Notes under the pieces: model-generated
Told to the model about the DNA's origin: nothing
What the model saw: the letters and a program-made list of their open reading frames with translations, nothing else
The model's database searches: none
Virus record (IMG/VR): IMGVR_UViG_3300042520_002382
Span: 1-61,688 of that record
DNA: 61,688 nucleotides
Source: a virus
Reading direction: 5' to 3' (one strand)
Translations under genes and position numbers: made by a program
Shown: positions 3,254 to 61,688 of the stretch, one piece after another
How positions within the stretch are numbered: the first letter of the stretch is position 1
How the letters are laid out: every line of letters begins with the position of its first letter

Positions 3254-3664
3254 ATGCCTGAATGCCTCCCCGACCGCCCCCTCTACATCCGCCAGCAAGG
3301 CTATCAATGGCTCGGCGCCGACCACCAGAACGGCCCCTGGCGACCGATCCCGGCGCCGCAGGCTGGGTTGCCATGGGCGACAGATGAATCGGCTGTGCAG
3401 AGCAGGGAACCGGCCTCCGTCGCTACTGAGGCTAGGCCCCTGAGCCCAGCCGCGCAGGCGGTGCTGGATGCGTTCCGCCCCACCAGTCACCACCGAAGGG
3501 CCATTGCCGCCGCCTTACGCGCTGCTGCGGATCAGGTGGTGCCGACAGAAATGGATCTGACTCCCAATTGGCCTGACCCTGGGCACTATCGACAACAGGA
3601 GCGACGGCTAACCCGCCAGCGCTTCCTCGCCCTCGCCGCCGAGCTGGAGGGATCCAATGGCTGA
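3254..3664 (+). CDS. Hypothetical protein, MPECLPDRPLYIRQ family
   Basis: 136 residues. The ATG was chosen over an in-frame TTG twelve bases upstream because the leader AAATCCCATGCCTGAAT is also found at the start at 60907. The N-terminal YIRQQGYQW motif is repeated in the frameshifted gene at 3657. The C-terminal half is helical and basic. Function unknown. Confidence 0.5.
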   Translation: MPECLPDRPLYIRQQGYQWLGADHQNGPWRPIPAPQAGLPWATDESAVQSREPASVATEARPLSPAAQAVLDAFRPTSHHRRAIAAALRAAADQVVPTEMDLTPNWPDPGHYRQQERRLTRQRFLALAAELEGSNG

Positions 3665-6004: not shown

Positions 6005-7552
6005 ATGCCCCTGAACCTCCTCCACCACGGCGCCGCGCACGCCTACCGGGGCTTCCCCGCCTGGCAGGAGGTGCAGTCGGCACGGGCGGCAGAGGGGGCC
6101 ATCCCGGCGGCAGTGGAGCCCTACACCAAGAGCTTTCGCGAGTACATCGCCGACGCCTACCCGCGGTTTCCCTTCACGCGCCACACCCTGCGGCTGATTG
6201 ATCTGGCGCAGCGGGTGGCCGATGGCGACCTGAGGCGCCTGATGGTAGAGCTGCCCCCCAGGCACTGGAAATCCACGATCTTCAGCCGATTCCTGCCGGG
6301 CTACTGCCTGCGGCGGTTCCCCGATCGCTCCGGCGGTATCTGCTGCCAGTCTCAAGACCTGGCGGTGGGCTTCAGCGAGGCCGCCCGCGATTACTTCGCC
6401 ACCAGCGGTGGCGTACTGAGCGCCAGCAAGGCCGGCAAGGAGGAGTGGGCCACGGCCGATGGGATCGGCTCGATCTGGACCGCAGGCATCGGCAAGGGCA
6501 CCGGCAAGCCCGGCCACTGGTTGTTCATTGATGACCCGATCAAGGGCCGCGAAGAGGCCGAGAGCGCCGCGTTCCGCCGGCAGGTTCACAACTGGTGGGA
6601 TTCGGTGCTCTCCACCCGTGAGGAGCCCAACAACAGCGTGGTGGTGGTTCACACGCGCTGGCACGAGGCCGACCTGATCGGCTACCTGCTCAGCAAGAAC
6701 CTGGAGCTGGAGAAGGAGGGCCTGGAGGACGACTGCGAGCGCTGGCACGTGGTCAGCCTCCCGATCGAGGCGGTGCCGGCCAACGACATCAAGCCTTTGC
6801 CGGCCACAGTCACCCGCGAGGCCGATAACCGGCAGCCGGGGGAGGCGCTGGATCCTGAGCGCTTCAACGAGCGGTGGATCAAGCGCAAGCGGGCCAACAT
6901 CCCCGACCGGGACTGGGAATCGATCTACCAGCAGCGCCCGAGCGCTGGCAAGGGCACGGTGTTTTTCTTGGATCGGATGCGGTTCTACGGCTGCCCGGCT
7001 TGGCCAGGCCAGGCAGGCGATCCCGATCTGCCTGCAGGCTTCATCCGCAAGATCCTGTCAGTAGATGCCACTTTTGACGACACCGCCGGCAGTGACATGG
7101 TGGCGATGACGCTATGGGGCCAAAGCCCGCAAGGTGCCTGGCTCTTGGACTTGGTGGATGAACGCCTCGACTTCCCGGCCACCGTGAGCATGATCCGCTC
7201 CATGCACCTACGGCACAGGTTTGGGCAGTTGGTGATCGAGAAAAAGGCCAACGGCGCTGCGGTGATCAAGACCCTCACGCAGGCCGCCCACGGCTATGAG
7301 GTGGTGGCCGCCGGAGTGGGTGACATGGGCGGCAAGGAATCCCGCGCCAATGCCGCCAGCGTGGAGTTCAACAACGGGAGAGTCTTCCTGCCTCGCTCTG
7401 CCCCCTGGAGCAACAAGGTCCGGGATCAGCTTGTGCAGTTCCCCGCGGCACCCTTCGATGACATCGTGGACAGCACGAGTCAGCTCCTGATCTTCCTCTC
7501 CGGCTCCGGCCCCATCAGCTTTGGCACCGTCAGCTATGGCCATGGCGCCTGA
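6005..7552 (+). CDS. terL: Terminase large subunit
   Basis: 515 residues. It is the ATPase and nuclease of the DNA-packaging motor, docking on the portal. The ATPase has a Walker A-like loop ELPPRHWKST at residues 82-91 and Walker B HWLFIDD at about 171-177. The C-terminal RNase-H-like nuclease starts near residue 350 with SVDATFDD, followed by a conserved Glu (VIEKKANG) and a final acidic pair (FDDIVDSTSQLL). Unlike typical phages, no small-subunit gene lies just before it; the likely partner is at 59485, about 8 kb upstream across the contig ends. It overlaps the sigma-like gene that follows. Confidence 0.92.
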   Translation: MPLNLLHHGAAHAYRGFPAWQEVQSARAAEGAIPAAVEPYTKSFREYIADAYPRFPFTRHTLRLIDLAQRVADGDLRRLMVELPPRHWKSTIFSRFLPGYCLRRFPDRSGGICCQSQDLAVGFSEAARDYFATSGGVLSASKAGKEEWATADGIGSIWTAGIGKGTGKPGHWLFIDDPIKGREEAESAAFRRQVHNWWDSVLSTREEPNNSVVVVHTRWHEADLIGYLLSKNLELEKEGLEDDCERWHVVSLPIEAVPANDIKPLPATVTREADNRQPGEALDPERFNERWIKRKRANIPDRDWESIYQQRPSAGKGTVFFLDRMRFYGCPAWPGQAGDPDLPAGFIRKILSVDATFDDTAGSDMVAMTLWGQSPQGAWLLDLVDERLDFPATVSMIRSMHLRHRFGQLVIEKKANGAAVIKTLTQAAHGYEVVAAGVGDMGGKESRANAASVEFNNGRVFLPRSAPWSNKVRDQLVQFPAAPFDDIVDSTSQLLIFLSGSGPISFGTVSYGHGA

Positions 7553-8555
7553 CCACCCGGCCAAGGCCCCAGGCGGCGCCAAGAACGGGGGTGGCGGATG
7601 GGGCGATAATGGCAGCGAAAGCGGGCCTATCTTGCCGGTGATGGCTACCACACCTCGGGCCCGCCAAAAGGTCGGCCGCCTGAGCAACAGCGAATATCGC
7701 GCCGAGGCCGGCCCGTGTCCTGATCTGGATCGGCTGGGGAGCTTTCCGCCGCCTACGGCAACGTCCGAGCAGTTGGCCATTGACAACCTGAAGCTCGCCA
7801 CGGCCATGGCCAACCGGCTGGCGCGGCGAACGCAGATGCCGTTTGACGACCTGCACATGGTCGCGGTCCGGGGGCTGCTAAACGGCTGCCGCCGGTACGA
7901 CCCCTCCACGGGCAACAAGCTCTCAACCTGCGTGGTGCCCTTCATCCGCGGCGCCATGGCCCAGTGGCTGCGGGACAAGGGCCACAGCAGCGGCGTGAAG
8001 TTCCCCGATCGCTGGCGCGACAAGGCCCCGGTGGTGCGGCGCATGGTGGCCGATGGCGCCACCCTCTCGGCCGTGGTGGAGGCCACCGGGCTGGAGGCGG
8101 CAGAGGTTGGGGAGATCCTGGAGGCCCAAGGCGCCACCCGCAGCCTGGATCACGAGAGCTATCAGGCTGAGCGCGAGGGCCGCCACGACTACGAACCCGA
8201 CCCATGGGATGAAATCGAGGCCTGCGACGAGTTGAATGACGCCCTGCGGGTCGCCGACGAGGCCCATGCCGCCCTGCGGTGGGCGGATCGGCTGATGCTG
8301 GAGCGGGCCTGGGAGATAATGCCCCGGCGGCAGTTGGCCCGGATGCCCCATGGGCAGTTCCTGCGGCATGCCGAGGGCATCCTCCGCGGGGAACGCCTGA
8401 GGCCTCACGAGGAGCGGGAGCCGCCGTCCCTGATGGTGCCCGTGGCCGGCGCCACGGACGGGGCCCGCAGGCGCGTCACGGAGCCTCGGGAGATCCTGCA
8501 GGCGGCGGAGCAGTTGGGGTTGTTCGATGCCTGTCGTGATGGGGGCCAGCCGTGA
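7536..8555 (+). CDS. Sigma-70-family-like transcription factor
   Basis: 339 residues from the ATG at 7536, overlapping the terminase end; starts at 7542 or 7641 are also possible. Residues about 80-150 match sigma region 2: NLKLATAMANRLARR, then FDDLHMVAVRGLLNGCRRYD, then STCVVPFIRGAMAQWLRDKG, which corresponds to the core-binding and -10 recognition helices. The following segment (VADGATLSAVVEATGLEAAE) looks like region 3. A normal region 4 (-35 recognition) is not recognisable; the C-terminal 120 residues are divergent. I infer that it directs host RNA polymerase to the GGGAAAACT sites, the first of which lies 226 bases after its stop. Confidence 0.72.
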   Translation: MAMAPDHPAKAPGGAKNGGGGWGDNGSESGPILPVMATTPRARQKVGRLSNSEYRAEAGPCPDLDRLGSFPPPTATSEQLAIDNLKLATAMANRLARRTQMPFDDLHMVAVRGLLNGCRRYDPSTGNKLSTCVVPFIRGAMAQWLRDKGHSSGVKFPDRWRDKAPVVRRMVADGATLSAVVEATGLEAAEVGEILEAQGATRSLDHESYQAEREGRHDYEPDPWDEIEACDELNDALRVADEAHAALRWADRLMLERAWEIMPRRQLARMPHGQFLRHAEGILRGERLRPHEEREPPSLMVPVAGATDGARRRVTEPREILQAAEQLGLFDACRDGGQP

Positions 8556-8767: not shown

Positions 8768-8780
8768 CCCCAGCCAGAGC

Positions 8781-8789
8781 GGGAAAACT
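8781..8789 (+). promoter_or_regulatory. Late-promoter-like motif GGGAAAACT (copy 1)
   Basis: Exact GGGAAAACT, followed by GCTCCCAG; 23 nt before the GTG of the portal gene. First of 16 identical plus-strand copies. Confidence 0.7.
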
Positions 8790-8812
8790 GCTCCCAGAAG
8801 GCATAGGCAGCG

Positions 8813-10351
8813 GTGCAGCAGCAGCAGATCAGCCATCCGACGACCAAGGGCGATCTGCCTTCGTTCCATCACCCCAGCCTGCGCGAGGTGCTGGGCGACC
8901 TTGATCTGGTTGCTGACTGCTGGGATTTGCTGCGGGGTGAGGCGAAAAAGCGGCACCTCCTGAAGGAGGCCGGCGAGCCCATGGCGGCCTACAAGGCCCG
9001 CGTGCAGCGCAGCTCCTACCCATCCTTCTTCCGTGATGGTGTCTCCGCCTTCGCTGGGGTGCTCAGCCGCTACGAGCTTCGCGGCGTGCAGCGGGGTCTC
9101 CTGGACGCTCGGGGGGACGTGGACGGCGAAGGCAACAGCCTCAAGGCATGGGGTTTATCAACCGATGCCATTGCGCTCCGTGATGGCGGCTGCCTACTGA
9201 TGGCCGACATGCCGCCGGACGCCGCCGATAGCCGCGCCGCCGAGCGAGCCCAGGGCCGCCGGCCCACGTTCTCCATGGCCGAGCGCCGCAACGTCCTCAA
9301 CTGGAGGCTCGCCAAGATTGGGGGCCGCCGCGTGCCGATTGCGGTCACGGTTTTGGAGTGGCACGAGGTTGAAGACGGGGACTACGGCCTCAAGATGGAG
9401 CCCCGTTACCGGGTGATGCAGGGCGGCCAGTGGCGGCTGCTAAAGATCACGGGTGACAGCGGCAAGGGCGCCACAGCCCGATTCAACCTGGAGGTGGCCA
9501 CCGATGAAGACGGGCGCCCGCAGAAGGGCACATTCCGGGGCCCCCGCGGCGAGCCGCTGGAGCGCCCCCCGGTGGTCTGGTACGGCCCCACCGCTCGCAG
9601 CGGCTTTGGGCAGGGCGGGCTGCCGCTGCTGAGCCTGGCGAACCTCACCCTCGATTGGTTCCGCGAATACTCCGACCTGAAGGAGCTGCTCCATCGCTGC
9701 GCCCTGCCGGTGGCCGTGGTGAAGGGCCGCCGGATGACCGGGCCCAACGGTGAGGTGCTGCCGCTGATGCTGGGGCCCAACTCCGTGGTGGAGTTCCCGG
9801 ATGGCACGGGCGATCTGGGCTTCGCCGAGCCAACCGGCAGCAGCCTGGACAAGCATTTGCAGCACCTGGAGGGGATCGAGAAGCTGATCGATCGCAGCAC
9901 CCTGTCGTTCCTGTTCTCCGGTGGTGGTGAGCGCACCGCCACGCAAGCCGAGCTGGAGAGCGCCCAACTGCAGGCCAGCATCACGGCCATGGCCGAGGCC
10001 AAAAGCTCCGCATGGGAGAGCCTGTTCCAAATCTGGGGCGCGTTCACCGGGGAGTTCCCCGAGCGTGACGCCGGTATCGATCTACTGCCAGGGGTCACCG
10101 ACAAGCCCGTGGACGATGCCCTGATCACCCTCGCCGGCAACCTTTACGACAAGGGCCTCCTCCTGCGCGAGACCGTCACGCACCTGGCCCAGAAGCGGGG
10201 CATGCTCCGGCCTGGCGCCGATGCCGACAAAGAGGCCGAGCTGCTGGCCGCCGAGGATGCCCGGCAGCAGGAGCTGATGAACCCGCCGGCGCCGGGGGTG
10301 AACGACCTGGCTGGAGGCGGCGTGGATGCGCAGGGGCTGCCCCTGATCTGA
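8813..10351 (+). CDS. Portal protein (DUF4055-like)
   Basis: 512 residues, GTG start 23 nt after motif copy 1. It forms the dodecameric ring at the capsid vertex to which terminase and the neck attach. The N-terminal pattern (Y..R..R..YPSFFRDGVSAFAGVLSR) and a long helical C-terminal region with AELESAQLQASITAMAEAKS look like the DUF4055 portal family as I remember it. Size and position between terminase and the MuF-type head gene fit. The C-terminal 40 residues are acidic and then Gly/Pro-rich. Confidence 0.78.
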   Translation: MQQQQISHPTTKGDLPSFHHPSLREVLGDLDLVADCWDLLRGEAKKRHLLKEAGEPMAAYKARVQRSSYPSFFRDGVSAFAGVLSRYELRGVQRGLLDARGDVDGEGNSLKAWGLSTDAIALRDGGCLLMADMPPDAADSRAAERAQGRRPTFSMAERRNVLNWRLAKIGGRRVPIAVTVLEWHEVEDGDYGLKMEPRYRVMQGGQWRLLKITGDSGKGATARFNLEVATDEDGRPQKGTFRGPRGEPLERPPVVWYGPTARSGFGQGGLPLLSLANLTLDWFREYSDLKELLHRCALPVAVVKGRRMTGPNGEVLPLMLGPNSVVEFPDGTGDLGFAEPTGSSLDKHLQHLEGIEKLIDRSTLSFLFSGGGERTATQAELESAQLQASITAMAEAKSSAWESLFQIWGAFTGEFPERDAGIDLLPGVTDKPVDDALITLAGNLYDKGLLLRETVTHLAQKRGMLRPGADADKEAELLAAEDARQQELMNPPAPGVNDLAGGGVDAQGLPLI

Positions 10352-10352
10352 C

Positions 10353-10361
10353 GGGAAAACT
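10353..10361 (+). promoter_or_regulatory. Late-promoter-like motif GGGAAAACT (copy 2)
   Basis: Exact motif two bases after the portal stop, followed by GCTGCAG; 21 nt before the ATG at 10383. No Shine-Dalgarno sequence lies between. Confidence 0.75.
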
Positions 10362-10382
10362 GCTGCAGAGACTGCCGTAGCC

Positions 10383-13102: not shown

Positions 13103-13139
13103 GGCGTCTCGCCCGTCCCGTTACTGGGATCCCGGCTAC

Positions 13140-13148
13140 GGGAAAACT
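13140..13148 (+). promoter_or_regulatory. Late-promoter-like motif GGGAAAACT (copy 3)
   Basis: Exact motif followed by GCAGCAGTAG; 21 nt before the GTG at 13170. The spacing decides the start of the next gene, whose frame is open much further upstream. Confidence 0.72.
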
Positions 13149-13169
13149 GCAGCAGTAGCAGCGGTTCCA

Positions 13170-14210: not shown

Positions 14211-14211
14211 C

Positions 14212-14220
14212 GGGAAAACT
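14212..14220 (+). promoter_or_regulatory. Late-promoter-like motif GGGAAAACT (copy 4)
   Basis: Exact motif one base after the previous stop; 20 nt before the ATG at 14241. The downstream GCAG element is degenerate here (GGGATAGCA). Confidence 0.72.
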
Positions 14221-14240
14221 GGGATAGCACCGTCAGCGCC

Positions 14241-17324: not shown

Positions 17325-17325
17325 C

Positions 17326-17334
17326 GGGAAAACT
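17326..17334 (+). promoter_or_regulatory. Late-promoter-like motif GGGAAAACT (copy 5)
   Basis: Exact motif one base after the preceding stop, followed by CAGGTACGG; 22 nt before the ATG at 17357. Confidence 0.7.
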
Positions 17335-17356
17335 CAGGTACGGCTTGAATGCCCCC

Positions 17357-17620
17357 ATGCCCGACCGCTCCCCCACGCTTCGCCTGTTCCAGGGCCTCAG
17401 TGTCGCTGTTCTCGGCCGCAATGCCCCGGCGGCACGGCAGGGCCTGCGGATGCTCACCACTCTCACCGACGACCCCGAGGGAGAGCAGATCCTGCGGCTG
17501 CTGAGCAACAACCTCGATCCCGCCGGCCGGTTCTGGCTGGGCACCCTGCATGGGGCCCGCGTGGGCCTGGAGGATCCGGCCCTGGAGGGCCCGGCTGCGG
17601 GAAAACTGCTGGCAGCCTGA
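17357..17620 (+). CDS. Hypothetical protein
   Basis: 87 residues; ATG chosen over an in-frame TTG at 17345 because it gives the usual 22-nt distance to motif copy 5. Helical (LFQGLSVAVLGRNAPAARQG). Its last codons (GKLLAA) are built from motif copy 6, so promoter and coding sequence overlap. Unknown function; its position suggests a head or neck protein. Confidence 0.5.
   Translation: MPDRSPTLRLFQGLSVAVLGRNAPAARQGLRMLTTLTDDPEGEQILRLLSNNLDPAGRFWLGTLHGARVGLEDPALEGPAAGKLLAA
17599..17607 (+). promoter_or_regulatory. Late-promoter-like motif GGGAAAACT (copy 6)
   Basis: Lies within the final codons of the upstream gene, followed by GCTGGCAG; 22 nt before the ATG at 17630. Confidence 0.72.
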
Positions 17621-18133: not shown

Positions 18134-18162
18134 GGCCATGCACTGCGGCAAAAAGGGCGAGC

Positions 18163-18171
18163 GGGAAAACT
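18163..18171 (+). promoter_or_regulatory. Late-promoter-like motif GGGAAAACT (copy 7)
   Basis: Exact motif followed by GCGGGCAGT; 25 nt before the ATG of a 41-residue Lys-rich gene. Confidence 0.72.
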
Positions 18172-18196
18172 GCGGGCAGTCACCCCAGAGAAGCCA

Positions 18197-18322: not shown

Positions 18323-18335
18323 GCCCCAGGGCCAC

Positions 18336-18344
18336 GGGAAAACT
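18336..18344 (+). promoter_or_regulatory. Late-promoter-like motif GGGAAAACT (copy 8)
   Basis: Followed by GAGGCAGTAG, the best match to the bipartite consensus; 21 nt before the ATG at 18366. Confidence 0.78.
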
Positions 18345-18365
18345 GAGGCAGTAGACCCCGATCCC

Positions 18366-21693: not shown

Positions 21694-22148
21694 TCCTCGC
21701 CGAGGCCAACCGCAACCGCGAGGCCCGGCCCGAGCCCTACAGCCTGCGGGAGTTCTGCTTCTGGGCAGACGTGGCCGAGAAGCCGCGCCCCCCCAGCGAG
21801 GCCGGTGCCGCCCTGCTGGAGCTGCTGGAGCGCAACCTGCTGCCGGGGTTCGTGCTTGACGGCCCATGGCTGGCCGATCTGGAGGCCCAGGGCCGTGGTG
21901 TCACCCCACCGCCGCGGCTGTGCTGGGCGGCTGAAGATGCGATCCTGCTGGCCCCCTACCGGGTGGATGCAGGCCACTGGGGCGGGTTCCTCGTGGCGCA
22001 GGTCAGCGCCGCGGGGCAAGCGCGGGAGTTCGCATCAGAGGCCGGCGAGGTGGTGGCCCTGCGGGTGCCGGCCGATGCGGTGCAGGGGCGAGCGTTCGCC
22101 GCGGCGCAGGCCGGCGCAGTGCTGGCCATGAGCAGCCGGGAAAACTGA
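20911..22148 (+). CDS. Tail assembly chaperone, -1 frameshift product (GT-like)
   Basis: Reading 20911-21480, then slipping back one base at G-GGA-AAG and continuing from 21480 to 22148, gives about 412 residues with no stop. The extension contains DWARAFWDCRRLWPGAPEF, then RERFGELPGGYVLQALQEGH and SLREFCFWADVAEKPRPPSE, and ends MSSREN. The part from 21771 could be read alone but has no start signal. Its last codons overlap motif copy 9. The pair sits before the tail tube gene rather than between tube and tape measure, which is unusual. Confidence 0.72.
21474..21480 (+). other. Programmed -1 frameshift site GGGAAAG
   Basis: Heptamer X-XXY-YYZ in phase with the upstream frame (codons GGA at 21475, AAG at 21478). 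It is identical to the slippery sequence of the lambda G/GT genes. Downstream sequence is GC-rich and could provide a stimulatory structure. Confidence 0.75.
22138..22146 (+). promoter_or_regulatory. Late-promoter-like motif GGGAAAACT (copy 9)
   Basis: Overlaps the last codons (Arg-Glu-Asn-stop) of the GT-like product, followed by GACGGCAG; 21 nt before the tail tube ATG. Confidence 0.75.
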
Positions 22149-22167
22149 CGGCAGAAACCCCCCTGCC

Positions 22168-26960: not shown

Positions 26961-27031
26961 GGCCTGAGGATAGCCATCCCAATCCAGACGGGCACCAAGG
27001 CGGTGGTGCTGATCTGACCGTGGGCCGTGAC

Positions 27032-27040
27032 GGGAAAACT
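27032..27040 (+). promoter_or_regulatory. Late-promoter-like motif GGGAAAACT (copy 10)
   Basis: Exact motif in the divergent gap, followed by GCCGTAGAGG; 28 nt before the ATG at 27069. Confidence 0.72.
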
Positions 27041-27068
27041 GCCGTAGAGGATCCACCGCCGTTCTGCC

Positions 27069-29027: not shown

Positions 29028-29031
29028 TGGC

Positions 29032-29040
29032 GGGAAAACT
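29032..29040 (+). promoter_or_regulatory. Late-promoter-like motif GGGAAAACT (copy 11)
   Basis: Exact motif followed by GCATCAGTAG; 25 nt before the GTG of the tape-measure gene. Confidence 0.75.
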
Positions 29041-29065
29041 GCATCAGTAGCGCGGTGCGGCTCGG

Positions 29066-36671: not shown

Positions 36672-36679
36672 GTCTGACC

Positions 36680-36688
36680 GGGAAAACT
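36680..36688 (+). promoter_or_regulatory. Late-promoter-like motif GGGAAAACT (copy 12)
   Basis: Followed by AAGGCAG; 21 nt before the GTG at 36710. The base after the motif is A rather than the common G. Confidence 0.75.
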
Positions 36689-36709
36689 AAGGCAGATTGA
36701 ACTTCTCCC

Positions 36710-37153
36710 GTGCCAGCACTGACGCAGACCCCCTTTGAAGCGGGGCGGATGTTCGCAAACGACTACGCCGGCAAGCGTGCCCGCCTGTGCCTGGCCAACA
36801 ACACCACGTCGCTAGGCCTGGCCAGCACCACGGCGCAGTGGGATGCGGCTGAGATCAGCGGCAACGGCTATGCACGGGTGGAATGGACGATCCCCTCGGG
36901 CAGCTACAACAGCACCACCGAGCGGTTTGAGGTGGCGGCACAGGCCGCTGCCTTCACCGCATCCTCCGGCGGTAGCGGGCTGAGCTGGAACACGGTCTAC
37001 CTGGTCCTCGGCACCATCTCCGGCGGCGTGACGACGTGGTTCACGGGCGTGAGCTACCTGCTCGTGGAATCGCCCACCGTTGCGCTGAGCCCTGGCGAAC
37101 CACGCACCTACAACGTGGTGCTGTTCACTGATGGGTTCGTGGTGACGAGCTGA
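36710..37153 (+). CDS. Beta-rich tail-tip-region protein
   Basis: 147 residues, GTG start 21 nt after motif copy 12. Strand-rich with YARVEWTIPSGSYNSTTERF and a short C-terminal strand (YNVVLFTDGFVVTS). Its stop overlaps the next gene (GATGG context). Probably a minor tail or fibre-attachment protein; no family recognised. Confidence 0.55.
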   Translation: MPALTQTPFEAGRMFANDYAGKRARLCLANNTTSLGLASTTAQWDAAEISGNGYARVEWTIPSGSYNSTTERFEVAAQAAAFTASSGGSGLSWNTVYLVLGTISGGVTTWFTGVSYLLVESPTVALSPGEPRTYNVVLFTDGFVVTS

Positions 37154-38670
37154 TGGCCGGCAGGGTCAATCTGAATGTGCCGCCGCGGCTAATTGAATCG
37201 GCCCGAGCGGCGCAGTACGCCAACCGCGAAGCGCAGGGGGCGCGGGAGCTGGCCCGCAGGATTGAGGGCAAGGTGCGGCAGCAACGCCAGGCAGCAAAGC
37301 GAGCGCAGCCCCAGGCGCAGACAATCGACGGGCAAGGCGCGGTTTTTGATGCGCCAGCATTGAAGCGCGTCCCGAGGATCTGGAGGAAGCGGAGGCCGTT
37401 GGGTGGTAATGGGTACGGAATAGGCTACATAGTTAACTACGATACCCCCTATGGAAACAACAAATTTCGCATCTATGCTCCAAATGGGACTGCATACGCA
37501 GAGATTGACGAGACCGCCGCAGGATTCATCCCAAACGCAAATCCCTTGGGTAGCTACGTCGGCGTAGTGTTTGAACAGGGTGCACTAGGACCCGGTGAGA
37601 ATGTCGTAGAGGTGGGAGGTGTGTTTTATTATCCCGCCTCCAACAGTGTTTATTCGATACATTCAACAAACTGGACGTTTCTTCCCGCAGGAAATGGCAG
37701 CGCTGTTTTTATTTTTTCTACTTATTACGCTTATGTAGATTTTTACTTAGCCAATATACTGGTCAACCCCGACGAACCTGACGGAGCATATACAGGTATA
37801 GCGCTAGGCAGTTATGTTGATGGCTTAAAACTGGTGCAAAAAGCATTTTTTGTATCCAATAATGCCGTTCAAGAAATAACCGTTGGAAGCGGTTTTAAGT
37901 CTTTTACGGAAGACTCTTTGCTGCCAATGGTGTGGACTAATGTAAGACTTGAGGAAGAGTTCACAAAACAGTTTATCGGCATGGTACGAATACCCAATAT
38001 GTTCGCATCTGCCCCAAGCCCAGGCTTCAAACCCTTTAGCACAGGCTCTAGAGGTTTTTCGCTAGACCCCTATGACCGATCGCTTGACTATTACAGCACT
38101 GTTAGGTTTGGCGATTTAGACTCGGGCGGAATTGCACCGTTACTAGGGTTCGGCCCTGGCATCTACAGCTACCTTGCAAACCCCGCTGCAGCCAATGCAG
38201 CCGTCAATGCGGCAGGCGATGGGCCATGGGCAAAGCAAACCGCAGCGGAGCAGTTTATTGGCGCCGACTTGCTACCCAGCGGCAGCCTTGCCGATTCGTC
38301 AATCAATCCTAAAAAATCCCTGCTTTACACTGGCACTTATCCACCAGCGAATCGGCCCTTTGGCACGATGTCTCAATTTAACGATCCCACCGGAGCTGGT
38401 ACCCTTAATAGAGCGCCTACCCTGCTTAGGTACAATTTAACCCCTACCGATGGGGTGGAAGACCCCCTGTGGGATACTCAGCCCGAAGAACTGGAAGATA
38501 GTGTTTTGTACCGCGAGCCTTTTGGTAGATTTGTGCAGCCAGGCCCTGAATCGCCCTTTGTCCCTAACACGTACACCACCCCCATTCTGTTCTGGGACTG
38601 GGACAACCCCGACTACTGCGAGCGCCAGCTCCTGAGGCTGGGCTTCAGTGAAGCCGATCTGACGCCATGA
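37153..38670 (+). CDS. Tail-associated protein of unknown fold
   Basis: 505 residues. A basic helical N-terminus (ESARAAQYANREAQGARELA) followed from about residue 80 by an aromatic, beta-rich region with many Tyr, Phe and Asn (YYAYVDFYLANILVNPDEPD). GC is clearly lower over 37400-38550 than in neighbours, suggesting acquisition. Could be a receptor-binding or fibre protein; not recognised. Confidence 0.55.
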   Translation: MAGRVNLNVPPRLIESARAAQYANREAQGARELARRIEGKVRQQRQAAKRAQPQAQTIDGQGAVFDAPALKRVPRIWRKRRPLGGNGYGIGYIVNYDTPYGNNKFRIYAPNGTAYAEIDETAAGFIPNANPLGSYVGVVFEQGALGPGENVVEVGGVFYYPASNSVYSIHSTNWTFLPAGNGSAVFIFSTYYAYVDFYLANILVNPDEPDGAYTGIALGSYVDGLKLVQKAFFVSNNAVQEITVGSGFKSFTEDSLLPMVWTNVRLEEEFTKQFIGMVRIPNMFASAPSPGFKPFSTGSRGFSLDPYDRSLDYYSTVRFGDLDSGGIAPLLGFGPGIYSYLANPAAANAAVNAAGDGPWAKQTAAEQFIGADLLPSGSLADSSINPKKSLLYTGTYPPANRPFGTMSQFNDPTGAGTLNRAPTLLRYNLTPTDGVEDPLWDTQPEELEDSVLYREPFGRFVQPGPESPFVPNTYTTPILFWDWDNPDYCERQLLRLGFSEADLTP

Positions 38671-38807: not shown

Positions 38808-38818
38808 TCGATCGAACC

Positions 38819-38827
38819 GGGAAAACT
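38819..38827 (+). promoter_or_regulatory. Late-promoter-like motif GGGAAAACT (copy 13)
   Basis: Exact motif, 41 nt before the ATG of the scaffold-like gene. Followed by GAGCCGTACC. Confidence 0.7.
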
Positions 38828-38868
38828 GAGCCGTACCCTGCCCCGGCGGAGCGATTCCCCGGCAACGC

Positions 38869-39687: not shown

Positions 39688-39705
39688 GGGCATGCCCGGC
39701 GAACC

Positions 39706-39714
39706 GGGAAAACT
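39706..39714 (+). promoter_or_regulatory. Late-promoter-like motif GGGAAAACT (copy 14)
   Basis: Followed by GAGGCGA. Unlike the others it is 158 nt from the next start (major capsid), with a tandem repeat between. Confidence 0.68.
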
Positions 39715-39721
39715 GAGGCGA

Positions 39722-39771
39722 CCCTCAAGCGCGATGCGGCGGGGTCACCCCTCAAGCGCGATGCGGCGGGG
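39722..39771 (+). repeat. Two tandem copies of a 23-bp sequence, period 27
   Basis: CCCTCAAGCGCGATGCGGCG-type units at 39722-39744 and 39749-39771, in the leader between motif copy 14 and the major capsid start. A long structured 5' leader for the most abundant protein may affect message stability or translation. Confidence 0.65.
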
Positions 39772-39872
39772 GCAACTGAACCTCTGAGCCCGTGGCTTGT
39801 GCGGTGTGGCGCGATGCCTGTCCAGACAACCACTGAGCAAAGAACCCCGCCCACCTTCACACCTTCCTAATC

Positions 39873-40850
39873 GTGGCCGTCACCACCTACCACCAAGTTT
39901 TCGAGCAGAAGTCTTTCGAGGCCGATGCAAACATGCAGGAGCTTGCTGTTCTCCAGACCATGCTGGACAACGGCCCCCTGTTCGCCATGCTGCCCTTCAA
40001 GGACATCGTGGGCGCGTCTGAGGTGTTTTCCTTGGAAGATGAGCTGCCGTTCGTGGCTGCTCGCCTCCTTGACGAAAAGCCCCAGAACGGACGTGGGAGC
40101 TCAATCCCGCAGTCGGTTATCACTGCGATCTACACGGCCGACATCGAAACCGATGTTCAGCGGCTGGCTCGCGAAGGTCGCGGATCTCACGACACTGAGG
40201 TTCTGCGCAATGCACGCGCCATCCGCATGCAGTTGGAGACCGATTTCGTGCGCGGCAGCCTCAATGCCACCGGCGGCCGGTCGTTCAACGGCCTTGCCAA
40301 CCTGATCAAGGCTGAAACCACCAACAGCCAGTCTATCCGCAACGATGCAACCGGAGCTGCCCCCAAACTTGCGGCCCTGGACGACATGATGAACCAGGTG
40401 GACGCGGCCCCAAGCGAGAAGAAGCTGCTGATCCCCAAGGCCCTGCGGCCCGCTCTGCAGGCGCTGAAGCGTGATCAGGCCTTGACCGGGAACTTGGAGC
40501 TTGCCGAGAACTCTCTCGGGCAGCCAGCAATGTTCTACGACGAGGCCGAAATCATCCTCACGGATGTTGATCCCGCCAACGTCGCAATTCAGGGTTTCAC
40601 CGAAGGGAGCGGTAGCAATACCTGCTCCATCTATTGCGTTGCCCTTGGCGAGGATTCGGTCTACATGGCCCAAGGCCTAAGTATGGCCAACGGCGAGCTG
40701 CGGCCCGGCCTGGTGGTTTACGACGTGGGCGAGGCATACGCCACAACCCACTTCAAGACCCGGATCAATATCGACTGCGCAGCGGTGATCAAAAACCCCC
40801 GCAAGGCCGCCCGCCTTTACAACGTGACCAAGGCCAACTTTACGGCCTGA
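39873..40850 (+). CDS. Major capsid protein
   Basis: 325 residues, GTG start. The layout fits an HK97-fold capsid protein: an N-terminal arm, ELPFVAARLLDEKPQNGRGS, a long spine helix region with DTEVLRNARAIRMQLETDFV, then FNGLANLIKAETTNSQSI, and a C-terminal domain (YATTHFKTRINIDCAAVIKN). Scaffold upstream and a decoration-like gene downstream support it. It lies about 31 kb after terminase, downstream of the tail genes, which is unusual. Confidence 0.8.
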   Translation: MAVTTYHQVFEQKSFEADANMQELAVLQTMLDNGPLFAMLPFKDIVGASEVFSLEDELPFVAARLLDEKPQNGRGSSIPQSVITAIYTADIETDVQRLAREGRGSHDTEVLRNARAIRMQLETDFVRGSLNATGGRSFNGLANLIKAETTNSQSIRNDATGAAPKLAALDDMMNQVDAAPSEKKLLIPKALRPALQALKRDQALTGNLELAENSLGQPAMFYDEAEIILTDVDPANVAIQGFTEGSGSNTCSIYCVALGEDSVYMAQGLSMANGELRPGLVVYDVGEAYATTHFKTRINIDCAAVIKNPRKAARLYNVTKANFTA

Positions 40851-41660: not shown

Positions 41661-41960
41661 GTGAGCATTCAATCAATCAGTGCCTGCCCTGGGATGGCCT
41701 GGAACCCAGGGTCTGGCTGGGCTGGACCGGCTGCTGCCTCAGGCGTGGCCGCTGAGCCTGCAGCGCCTGATCCCGAGCCCCGGCGCCCGGCGGGCAGGGC
41801 CCGCCTGCGGCGCCGCGCCCGCACCGAGCAAGGCACCTTCCAGCCCGACGACCCGGCAACACCTGACGTGGATGAGGCATTCGAGGAAGCGCCCGAAGCC
41901 GAGGCCGAAGCGCAACCCGATGCCGAGGCCCAGCCGGGAAAACTGGTGCAGAGGGACTGA
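41661..41960 (+). CDS. Hypothetical protein with acidic C-terminus
   Basis: 99 residues, GTG start preceded by AGGAG eight bases upstream, one of the few clear Shine-Dalgarno sites in the late region. It has an Ala/Pro/Gly-rich N-terminal part, a basic patch (RARLRRRARTEQGTF) and an acidic tail (DVDEAFEEAPEAEAEAQPDA). The last codons contain motif copy 15. Unknown; a head-tail joining or assembly factor is possible. Confidence 0.5.
   Translation: MSIQSISACPGMAWNPGSGWAGPAAASGVAAEPAAPDPEPRRPAGRARLRRRARTEQGTFQPDDPATPDVDEAFEEAPEAEAEAQPDAEAQPGKLVQRD
41936..41944 (+). promoter_or_regulatory. Late-promoter-like motif GGGAAAACT (copy 15)
   Basis: Inside the 3' end of the upstream gene, followed by GGTGCAG; 20 nt before the ATG at 41965. 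Confidence 0.75.
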
Positions 41961-45364: not shown

Positions 45365-45460
45365 ATGACCGCCTGGCACCTGGCACTGTTCCCAGTCGCC
45401 TGGTACCTGGTGACAGCGGTGCCTGCCATGCCGCCTGAAGTGCTGCATCGGGAAAACTGA
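45365..45460 (+). CDS. Tiny membrane peptide (31 residues)
   Basis: MTAWHLALFPVAWYLVTAVP followed by a short tail ending HREN; the last codons lie in motif copy 16. One hydrophobic segment. Its start overlaps the stop of a 17-codon frame beginning at 45315. It may be part of the holin region; weak support. Confidence 0.35.
   Translation: MTAWHLALFPVAWYLVTAVPAMPPEVLHREN
45450..45458 (+). promoter_or_regulatory. Late-promoter-like motif GGGAAAACT (copy 16)
   Basis: Followed by GAGGCAGAG; 20 nt before the ATG at 45479. The last copy on the genome. Confidence 0.75.
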
Positions 45461-45478
45461 GGCAGAGCACAGCACCCC

Positions 45479-61376: not shown

Positions 61377-61688
61377 ATGGCTGAATCCCCAACCCTCAAC
61401 CTGCCGGCCATCTTGGCCGCTCACGCCCAGTCGCTGGCTGATTCCGGCACCGGGCAACGCGCCAACCTCAGCTGGGCCGACCTCAGACGAGCCAACCTCA
61501 GCGAAGCCAACCTCAGCGGGGCCGACCTCAGCGGGGCCAACCTCAGCGAAGCCAACCTCAGCGGGGCCAACCTCAGCGGGGCCGACCTCAGACGGGCCAA
61601 CCTCAGCGGGGCCGACCTCAGACGGGCCAACCTCAGCTGGGCCGACCTCAGCGGGGCCAACCTCAGCGGGGCCGACCTCAGACGGGCC
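61377..61688 (+). CDS. Pentapeptide-repeat protein, N-terminal part (continues at position 1)
   Basis: [20 protein letters not shown], then from about residue 27 uninterrupted A(N/D)Lxx repeats to the end of the window. In frame with 1-549. The leader before the ATG is a variant of the one at 60907. The true number of repeats is uncertain because the contig breaks inside the repeat. Confidence 0.8.

Follow-up and report, generated by a model that had tools for sequence, protein, structure and literature searches.

Gene layout of the virus record

The stretch of DNA analysed here (‘the window’) is the virus record IMGVR_UViG_3300042520_002382, of 61,688 bp, from position 1 to position 61,688; the virus is a cyanobacterial one. 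Its left end and centre carry, on the plus strand, a dCTP deaminase, terL, a sigma factor-like ORF, the portal and a MuF-like head protein, followed further on by tail proteins, the tape measure, the major capsid protein and an integrase; the right arm is encoded on the minus strand and contains ExoVIII, RecT, RusA and an O-like replication initiator. The sigma ORF (7521..8555, plus strand) sits between terL (6005-7552) and the portal (8813-10351).

A search with the beta-clamp families returned no match in the window record, which is possibly incomplete, and a search for T7-type or single-subunit RNA polymerases, the positive control of which matched nothing anywhere, also gave none there. 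A record-wide sigma scan found no second sigma in the window or in two related records (G030 and G031), all three of which carry the promoter motif described below. Some relatives do have a second sigma region-2 gene, encoded on the other strand from their late genes (G006, 37129-37344; G010, 8060-8269; G034, 3435-3656).

A sigma factor gene between terminase and portal

Judged by its region 2, the ORF between terminase and portal is a sigma-70-family protein, with the following predicted features:

7641..8555, plus strand: late sigma CDS of 304 aa with ATG 7641 as its start (the open frame reaches back to TTG 7521)
7785..7982, plus strand: sigma region 2 (core binding, -10 recognition); Pfam PF04542, E 2.9e-5; record-wide scan 1.9e-7
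7998..8150, plus strand: sigma region 3-like helices (HTH-like, ending ...SLD), from profile-profile alignment, AF2 helices and weak Pfam region 3 matches in homologues
8202..8384, plus strand: C-terminal helical part at the expected place of region 4, which is undetectable; possibly a degenerate remnant
8385..8489, plus strand: variable-length sigma linker, from alignments
8511..8525, plus strand: QLGLF, predicted beta sliding-clamp binding motif (Q 24/24, L 23/24, L 19/24, F 20/24; consensus PMC11139829)

An earlier note on this DNA, made from the sequence alone, had begun the gene at 7536, about 105 nt too early: the 5' part of the ORF from that position overlaps terL, and the true CDS is probably 7641-8555, because homologues in the alignment begin at MATT, which corresponds to the ATG at 7641, 89 nt past the terL stop. 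The dN/dS values against homologues (0.13-0.39) indicate that the gene is under purifying selection. The alignment, built from 16 homologues at 56-94% identity and then more diverged ones down to 42%, shows regions 2 and 3 as conserved blocks; beyond them come a C-terminal part that is helical, a linker that varies and a short tail that is again conserved.

The same note had described a good region 2, a likely region 3 and no visible region 4, and the first and last of these descriptions hold. The Pfam family Sigma70_r2 matches residues 89-154 (E 2.9e-5), and two PHROG sigma families match the ORF (E 3e-18 and 1.3e-12), whereas Pfam region 4 was detected at E<=0.1 in none of 15 phage homologues. 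The signal for region 3 is weak: a profile-profile alignment against cyanobacterial group-3 sigmas (probability 99.2%) covers regions 2 and 3 and ends at about residue 213, while the best Pfam region 3 match (E 0.013) is below cut-off strength and confined to 3 of the 15 phage homologues. In a profile search of PDB sequences, SigB, SigF and FliA align across regions 2 and 3, and SigB reaches the start of region 4.1. A mixed scan in which region-4 families matched five and three members fits the six cyanobacterial group-3 sigma controls that it included.

AF2 modelling with 16 close homologues gave a pLDDT of 51, and with 31 sequences a pLDDT of 70.6 (moderate confidence); the latter model places helices at residues 228-251, 254-266 and 277-288, the expected place of region 4, and Foldseek aligns the complete chain with complete sigmas over their full length at low TM-score. 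Because the confidence of the model is moderate and the Foldseek alignments extend over whole sigmas, a degenerate region 4 fold is possible; such a domain would not read DNA and might still touch the flap, in a role comparable to that of T4 gp33. Taken as a whole, the protein looks like a group-3 sigma that has lost region 4 and has either gained or kept a ‘clamp tag’ of the bacterial kind.

A predicted promoter element ahead of the late genes

The sequence GGGAAAACT occurs in 16 exact copies in the window (0.31 expected from shuffles), all 16 on the plus (late) strand and all confined to 8.78-45.45 kb; the early arm on the opposite strand has none, and the window holds only three sites with one mismatch. 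Most copies are found 20-40 nt upstream of late-gene starts, and 14 of the 16 precede an ORF of at least 80 aa that begins 11-36 nt past the presumed transcription start. The exceptions to this spacing are the capsid gene, at 153 nt, and the copy at 18163, which precedes a short ORF only. A reading of GGGAAAACT as a Shine-Dalgarno-type sequence was rejected, since both its sequence and its spacing are wrong. The -10 consensus of B. subtilis SigF is GGNRANAMT, and we take GGGAAAACT to fit it. The following late promoters, all on the plus strand, are predicted from motif matches and their position relative to ORFs:

8780..8796, plus strand: late promoter 1 (portal, GTG 8813)
10352..10368, plus strand: late promoter 2 (gene 10383)
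13139..13155, plus strand: late promoter 3 (gene 13170)
14211..14227, plus strand: late promoter 4 (gene 14241)
17325..17341, plus strand: late promoter 5 (gene 17357)
17598..17614, plus strand: late promoter 6 (gene 17624)
18162..18178, plus strand: late promoter 7 (short ORF from about 18197)
18335..18351, plus strand: late promoter 8 (gene 18366)
22137..22153, plus strand: late promoter 9 (tail protein 22168)
27031..27047, plus strand: late promoter 10 (gene 27069)
29031..29047, plus strand: late promoter 11 (tape measure 29066)
36679..36695, plus strand: late promoter 12 (gene 36710)
38818..38834, plus strand: late promoter 13 (gene 38869)
39705..39721, plus strand: late promoter 14 (major capsid 39873, longer leader)
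41935..41951, plus strand: late promoter 15 (gene 41965)
45449..45465, plus strand: late promoter 16 (gene 45479)

Five late genes that each lie directly behind a promoter copy (10383, 13170, 14241, 18366 and 27069) share an N-terminal module, RRT-Y-[VA]RD-x-x-GRFAS, which precedes Lys/Ala-rich bodies, and promoter and N-terminus together look like a copied ‘cassette’. The leader of the capsid gene (39705-39873) is unusually long and contains CCCTCAAGCGCGATGCGGCGGGG repeated twice; a similar GCGATGCCGCGGGTCACCC stretch is found in one relative (L189).

Conservation of the element across related records

Twelve related records, some of them near-duplicates, together contain 136 copies of the motif, all on the strand of the sigma gene, against a single copy of the reversed-pattern control. 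From several lineages 82 non-redundant sites were collected, in which the core is invariant by selection of the sites. Upstream of the core, the sole notable information in these sites is a C at -1, and nothing resembling a -35 element appears; downstream, a ‘YAG’ initiator-like element, with its A at +14 or +15 (counted from the first G), is present in 51 of the 82, and start codons mostly follow that position by 15-24 nt. The motif is kept in every homologue locus with enough downstream sequence (down to 42% protein identity, and from 43 to 69% GC), often near the sigma stop, phages of 43-48% GC included. In a lineage at 45% sigma identity most sites read CGGGAAACCT (5/7 in the longest record), and CGGGAAAACT is retained at the end of the sigma gene.

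These observations bear on three statements of the earlier note. The gene was said to lie directly ahead of the first motif copy, and that copy, GGGAAAACT at 8781, is indeed found 226 nt beyond the sigma stop; the promoters were proposed to consist of a -10-type box only, in agreement with the lack of -35 information in the 82 sites; and the co-occurrence of gene and motif across phages, which the note had suggested as a check, was recovered, in that the motif accompanies every homologue with downstream sequence and no counter-example covers the sigma slot. Among the larger records inspected that cover this slot (small fragments being set aside), no motif array was found without a sigma gene. 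Several candidate counter-examples were discarded: in G013, G019 and G029 the sigma slot falls outside the coverage of the record; G020 starts in an apparent sigma 3' end (..VVQLSLRLP..), followed by a methyltransferase-like ORF and then the portal; and the one copy per strand in G021 is attributable to chance.

The sigma slot and the portal promoter are separated by a DNA methyltransferase-like ORF in one relative (L141, 63-1070) and by about 1 kb of extra DNA in another (L124, 1533-2547), and this position is possibly a ‘cargo’ slot.

Cultured cyanosiphoviruses as an independent test

Among sequenced phages, the terL proteins most closely related to that of the window belong to S-CRES1-3, S-CBS2 and P-SS2, of which S-CRES1 and S-CBS2 are cultured siphophages of Synechococcus, and in all those inspected (S-CRES1, S-CRES3, S-CBS2 and P-SS2) a sigma gene directly follows terL. 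Because of this position and the terL best matches, P-SS2 ORF003, S-CBS2 gp77 and S-CRES1 gp20 are taken to be orthologous to the window sigma; these isolate orthologues, like the C-terminal clamp motif, were absent from the earlier note. The likeness of the terL-linked sigmas of S-CRES1, S-CBS2 and P-SS2 to that of the window lies in their synteny behind terL and in a Pfam profile limited to region 2, and they are only about 30% identical to it.

Simple k-mer counting in S-CRES1 yielded an SD-like word only; a de novo, degeneracy-tolerant EM search upstream of its genes then recovered GGNANMCTA (LL 87.8, as compared with 27.1-31.0 for shuffled sequences). When the window element is read from the second of its Gs onwards (GG A A A A C T), it corresponds to this pattern, and so does CGGGAAACCT, except for the last A. 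S-CRES1 and S-CBS2 share a GGNANMCT element with the window; the isolates' GGNANMCTA is more degenerate. In S-CRES1, 18 of 23 copies are located 20-60 nt upstream of annotated starts (reversed pattern, 0/11), with targets that include terS, tape measure, scaffold and spike; the lysozyme copies lie at 17 and 28 nt and the portal copy at 79 nt. S-CBS2 has 31 copies on the plus and 2 on the minus strand, 23 of them near starts. When near-start sites of the two phages were pooled (n=47), the modal distance to the start was 28-33 nt, A and then G were enriched at +13/+14 from GG, which is the geometry of the window, and no -35 was seen. The signal in P-SS2 is weak (11 copies on plus versus 1 on minus, 6 near starts); the description of that phage predicted a regulon for its terL-linked sigma and left it unspecified (PMC2784084).

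The C-terminal tail

The window sigma terminates in a predicted flexible tail, the sequence of which fits the beta-clamp consensus Q-phi-x-[LM]-[FL] (PMC11139829). QLxLF is the consensus of the highest-affinity bacterial clamp binders (PMC11139829), and the window's version, QLGLF, is the clamp motif of E. coli Pol II (PMC3716654). Across the alignment Q331 is conserved in 24/24, L332 in 23/24, L334 in 19/24 and F335 in 20/24 homologues; substitutions are mostly clamp-compatible (QLALL, QLVLI, QLGIL), and the most diverged homologues end at ...HQLDLF, ...TQLDLF or ...SQLDLF. Among the 339 six-frame ORFs of the window (59,762 aa) QLxLF occurs twice, one occurrence being the sigma tail.

The S-CRES-type sigmas that can be read to their end all finish in Q[GP]SLF, as compared with QLGLF in the window. 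The deposited S-CBS2 gene (gp77; about 8500-8700 in L074) appears to belong with them, in that another frame restores the ...GRLQGSLF stop seen in S-CRES1, and it is probably truncated by a frameshift or a sequencing error. The clamp consensus has been lost in one lineage (L082, QAALL) and is missing from the end of the P-SS2 orthologue, both of which keep region 2; by sequence, therefore, the QLxLF tail is not universal among orthologues. A second conserved stretch in the linker of homologues, Q-x-x-L-x-[LI] (QIDLSI, QQALAL), is missing from the window protein, where it would fall at residues 299-304; it resembles a hexameric clamp motif and is possibly a second clamp contact.

Comparison with known phage and bacterial systems

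T4 gp55 is a region-2-only sigma that serves an 8-bp -10-like promoter and carries a clamp motif at its C-terminus beyond a variable linker, while the flap is taken up by gp33 and activation comes from gp45 (PMC2988020, PMC7892883). By sequence, the window sigma resembles gp55 on three points: region 2 as its one clear sigma region, a late promoter that has a -10 only, and a clamp motif placed at the C-terminus behind a linker of variable length. No sequence relation between the two is detectable: the PDB profile search lists SigB, SigF, FliA and SigA and, at E<=10, neither 7D7C nor 7D7D, the chains that served as the gp55 test and were assumed to be in the library. Their clamp motifs also differ in kind (bacterial QLxLF in the window, hydrophobic/acidic in T4), and T4 encodes its own clamp, gp45, whereas no phage clamp was found in the window record; T4 gp33 is too small and diverged for a family-based search, and none was recognised in that record. 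The window is, unlike T4, a siphophage-type genome with an integrase.

A -10-only phage promoter is already known from 7-11, phiEco32 and phage K: the 7-11 sigma uses a single -10-type element, and the late promoters of phage K lack a visible -35 (PMC4331800, PMC11598898). The motifs of these phages differ from that of the window, and the passages cited report no clamp tail for them. Of the group-3 sigmas SigF, SigB and FliA, SigB and SigF align with the window sigma in regions 2 and 3. Such sigmas use a GG-rich -10. They also possess a region 4 and a -35 element, both of which are missing from the window system.

A proposed mechanism and its alternatives

The in silico results (sigma homology, the absent region 4, the motif array, the co-conservation of motif and gene and the conserved clamp motif) can be brought together in one explanation, which we consider likely: the protein would be a phage late sigma that reads a -10-only element and is anchored via its clamp tail. 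With its region 2 it would bind the core of the host's RNA polymerase, and it would recognise the single -10-type element (C)GGGAAAACT, a -35 being neither needed nor contactable; transcription would start at the YAG about 6 nt downstream of the element's final T, so that the sigma, following terminase, would switch on the downstream structural genes. A -10 contact on its own is weak, and the missing anchoring therefore probably comes, as in T4, from the flexible C-terminal tail, which would dock through QLxLF on the replicative sliding clamp; the clamp in question would be the host DnaN, because no phage clamp was found. With the tail docked in this way, late transcription would increase as the phage DNA is replicated. 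The parts are not equally secure: that the terL-linked sigma reads the GGGAAAACT-type promoter is, on the sequence evidence, very likely, and we lean towards the view that the tail is a clamp binder and ties late transcription to replication.

A doubtful alternative, and the most serious one, accepts that the sigma reads a -10-only promoter and regards QLxLF as the end of a structural or core-binding helix unrelated to any clamp. The helix EILQAAEQ, which precedes QLxLF in the AF2 model, would suit it, as would L082 and P-SS2, in which region 2 is kept and the motif is gone. However, the positions of the clamp consensus are near-invariant inside an otherwise variable tail, the substitutions there mostly preserve clamp compatibility (QLALL, QLVLI, QLGIL), the most diverged chains stop at QLDLF with no fold beyond it, and a second family ends in Q[GP]SLF.

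It is improbable that the promoter is read by some other factor, be it a group-3 sigma of the host, an RNA polymerase of the phage or a further phage protein, and that the terL-linked sigma has another target. Cyanobacterial group-3 sigmas exist and some relatives have a second sigma, and co-conservation of motif and sigma would also be expected for another co-inherited late regulator; yet the terL-linked sigma is the only one in the window, G030 and G031 records, host group-3 sigmas, which possess a region 4, would presumably use a -35, the search for single-subunit RNAP (which had no matching positive control) found none, and the form of the motif tracks the sigma lineage. Mycobacteriophages are known to have ‘stoperators’ and start-associated elements, and a phage with an integrase and a one-directional motif close to gene starts could conceivably carry a repressor stoperator or a start-associated translation element; this reading is very improbable, given an early arm without the motif, its unlikeness to a Shine-Dalgarno sequence, its variable distance to the start (up to 153 nt at the capsid gene), the YAG at fixed spacing downstream and its covariation with the sigma gene. 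Reading of the promoter by the terL-linked sigma, anchored through its tail, is thus the explanation that we prefer.

Implications

The clamp-activated mechanism of late transcription has been described in review as unique to the T4 family, or as significantly different outside it (PMC2988020), and the literature searched gave no report of clamp-coupled late transcription outside T4; such coupling would be new. Whether there is a class of cyanosiphoviruses in which a one-piece, region-4-less sigma, with its tail on the host DnaN, reads a -10-only promoter, and thus replication-coupled late transcription outside T4-like phages, is a proposal that we regard as evenly poised. The system would be a minimal one of two parts, a single protein and a single 10-bp element, and is testable in vitro. 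The terL-linked cyanosiphovirus sigma, an ‘orphan’ until now, also gains a likely regulon, cultured isolates included. If the explanation is true, it would provide a second, apparently unrelated case of clamp-coupled late transcription, built on the host clamp, and the replication coupling of late transcription would be a general compensation for a missing region 4.
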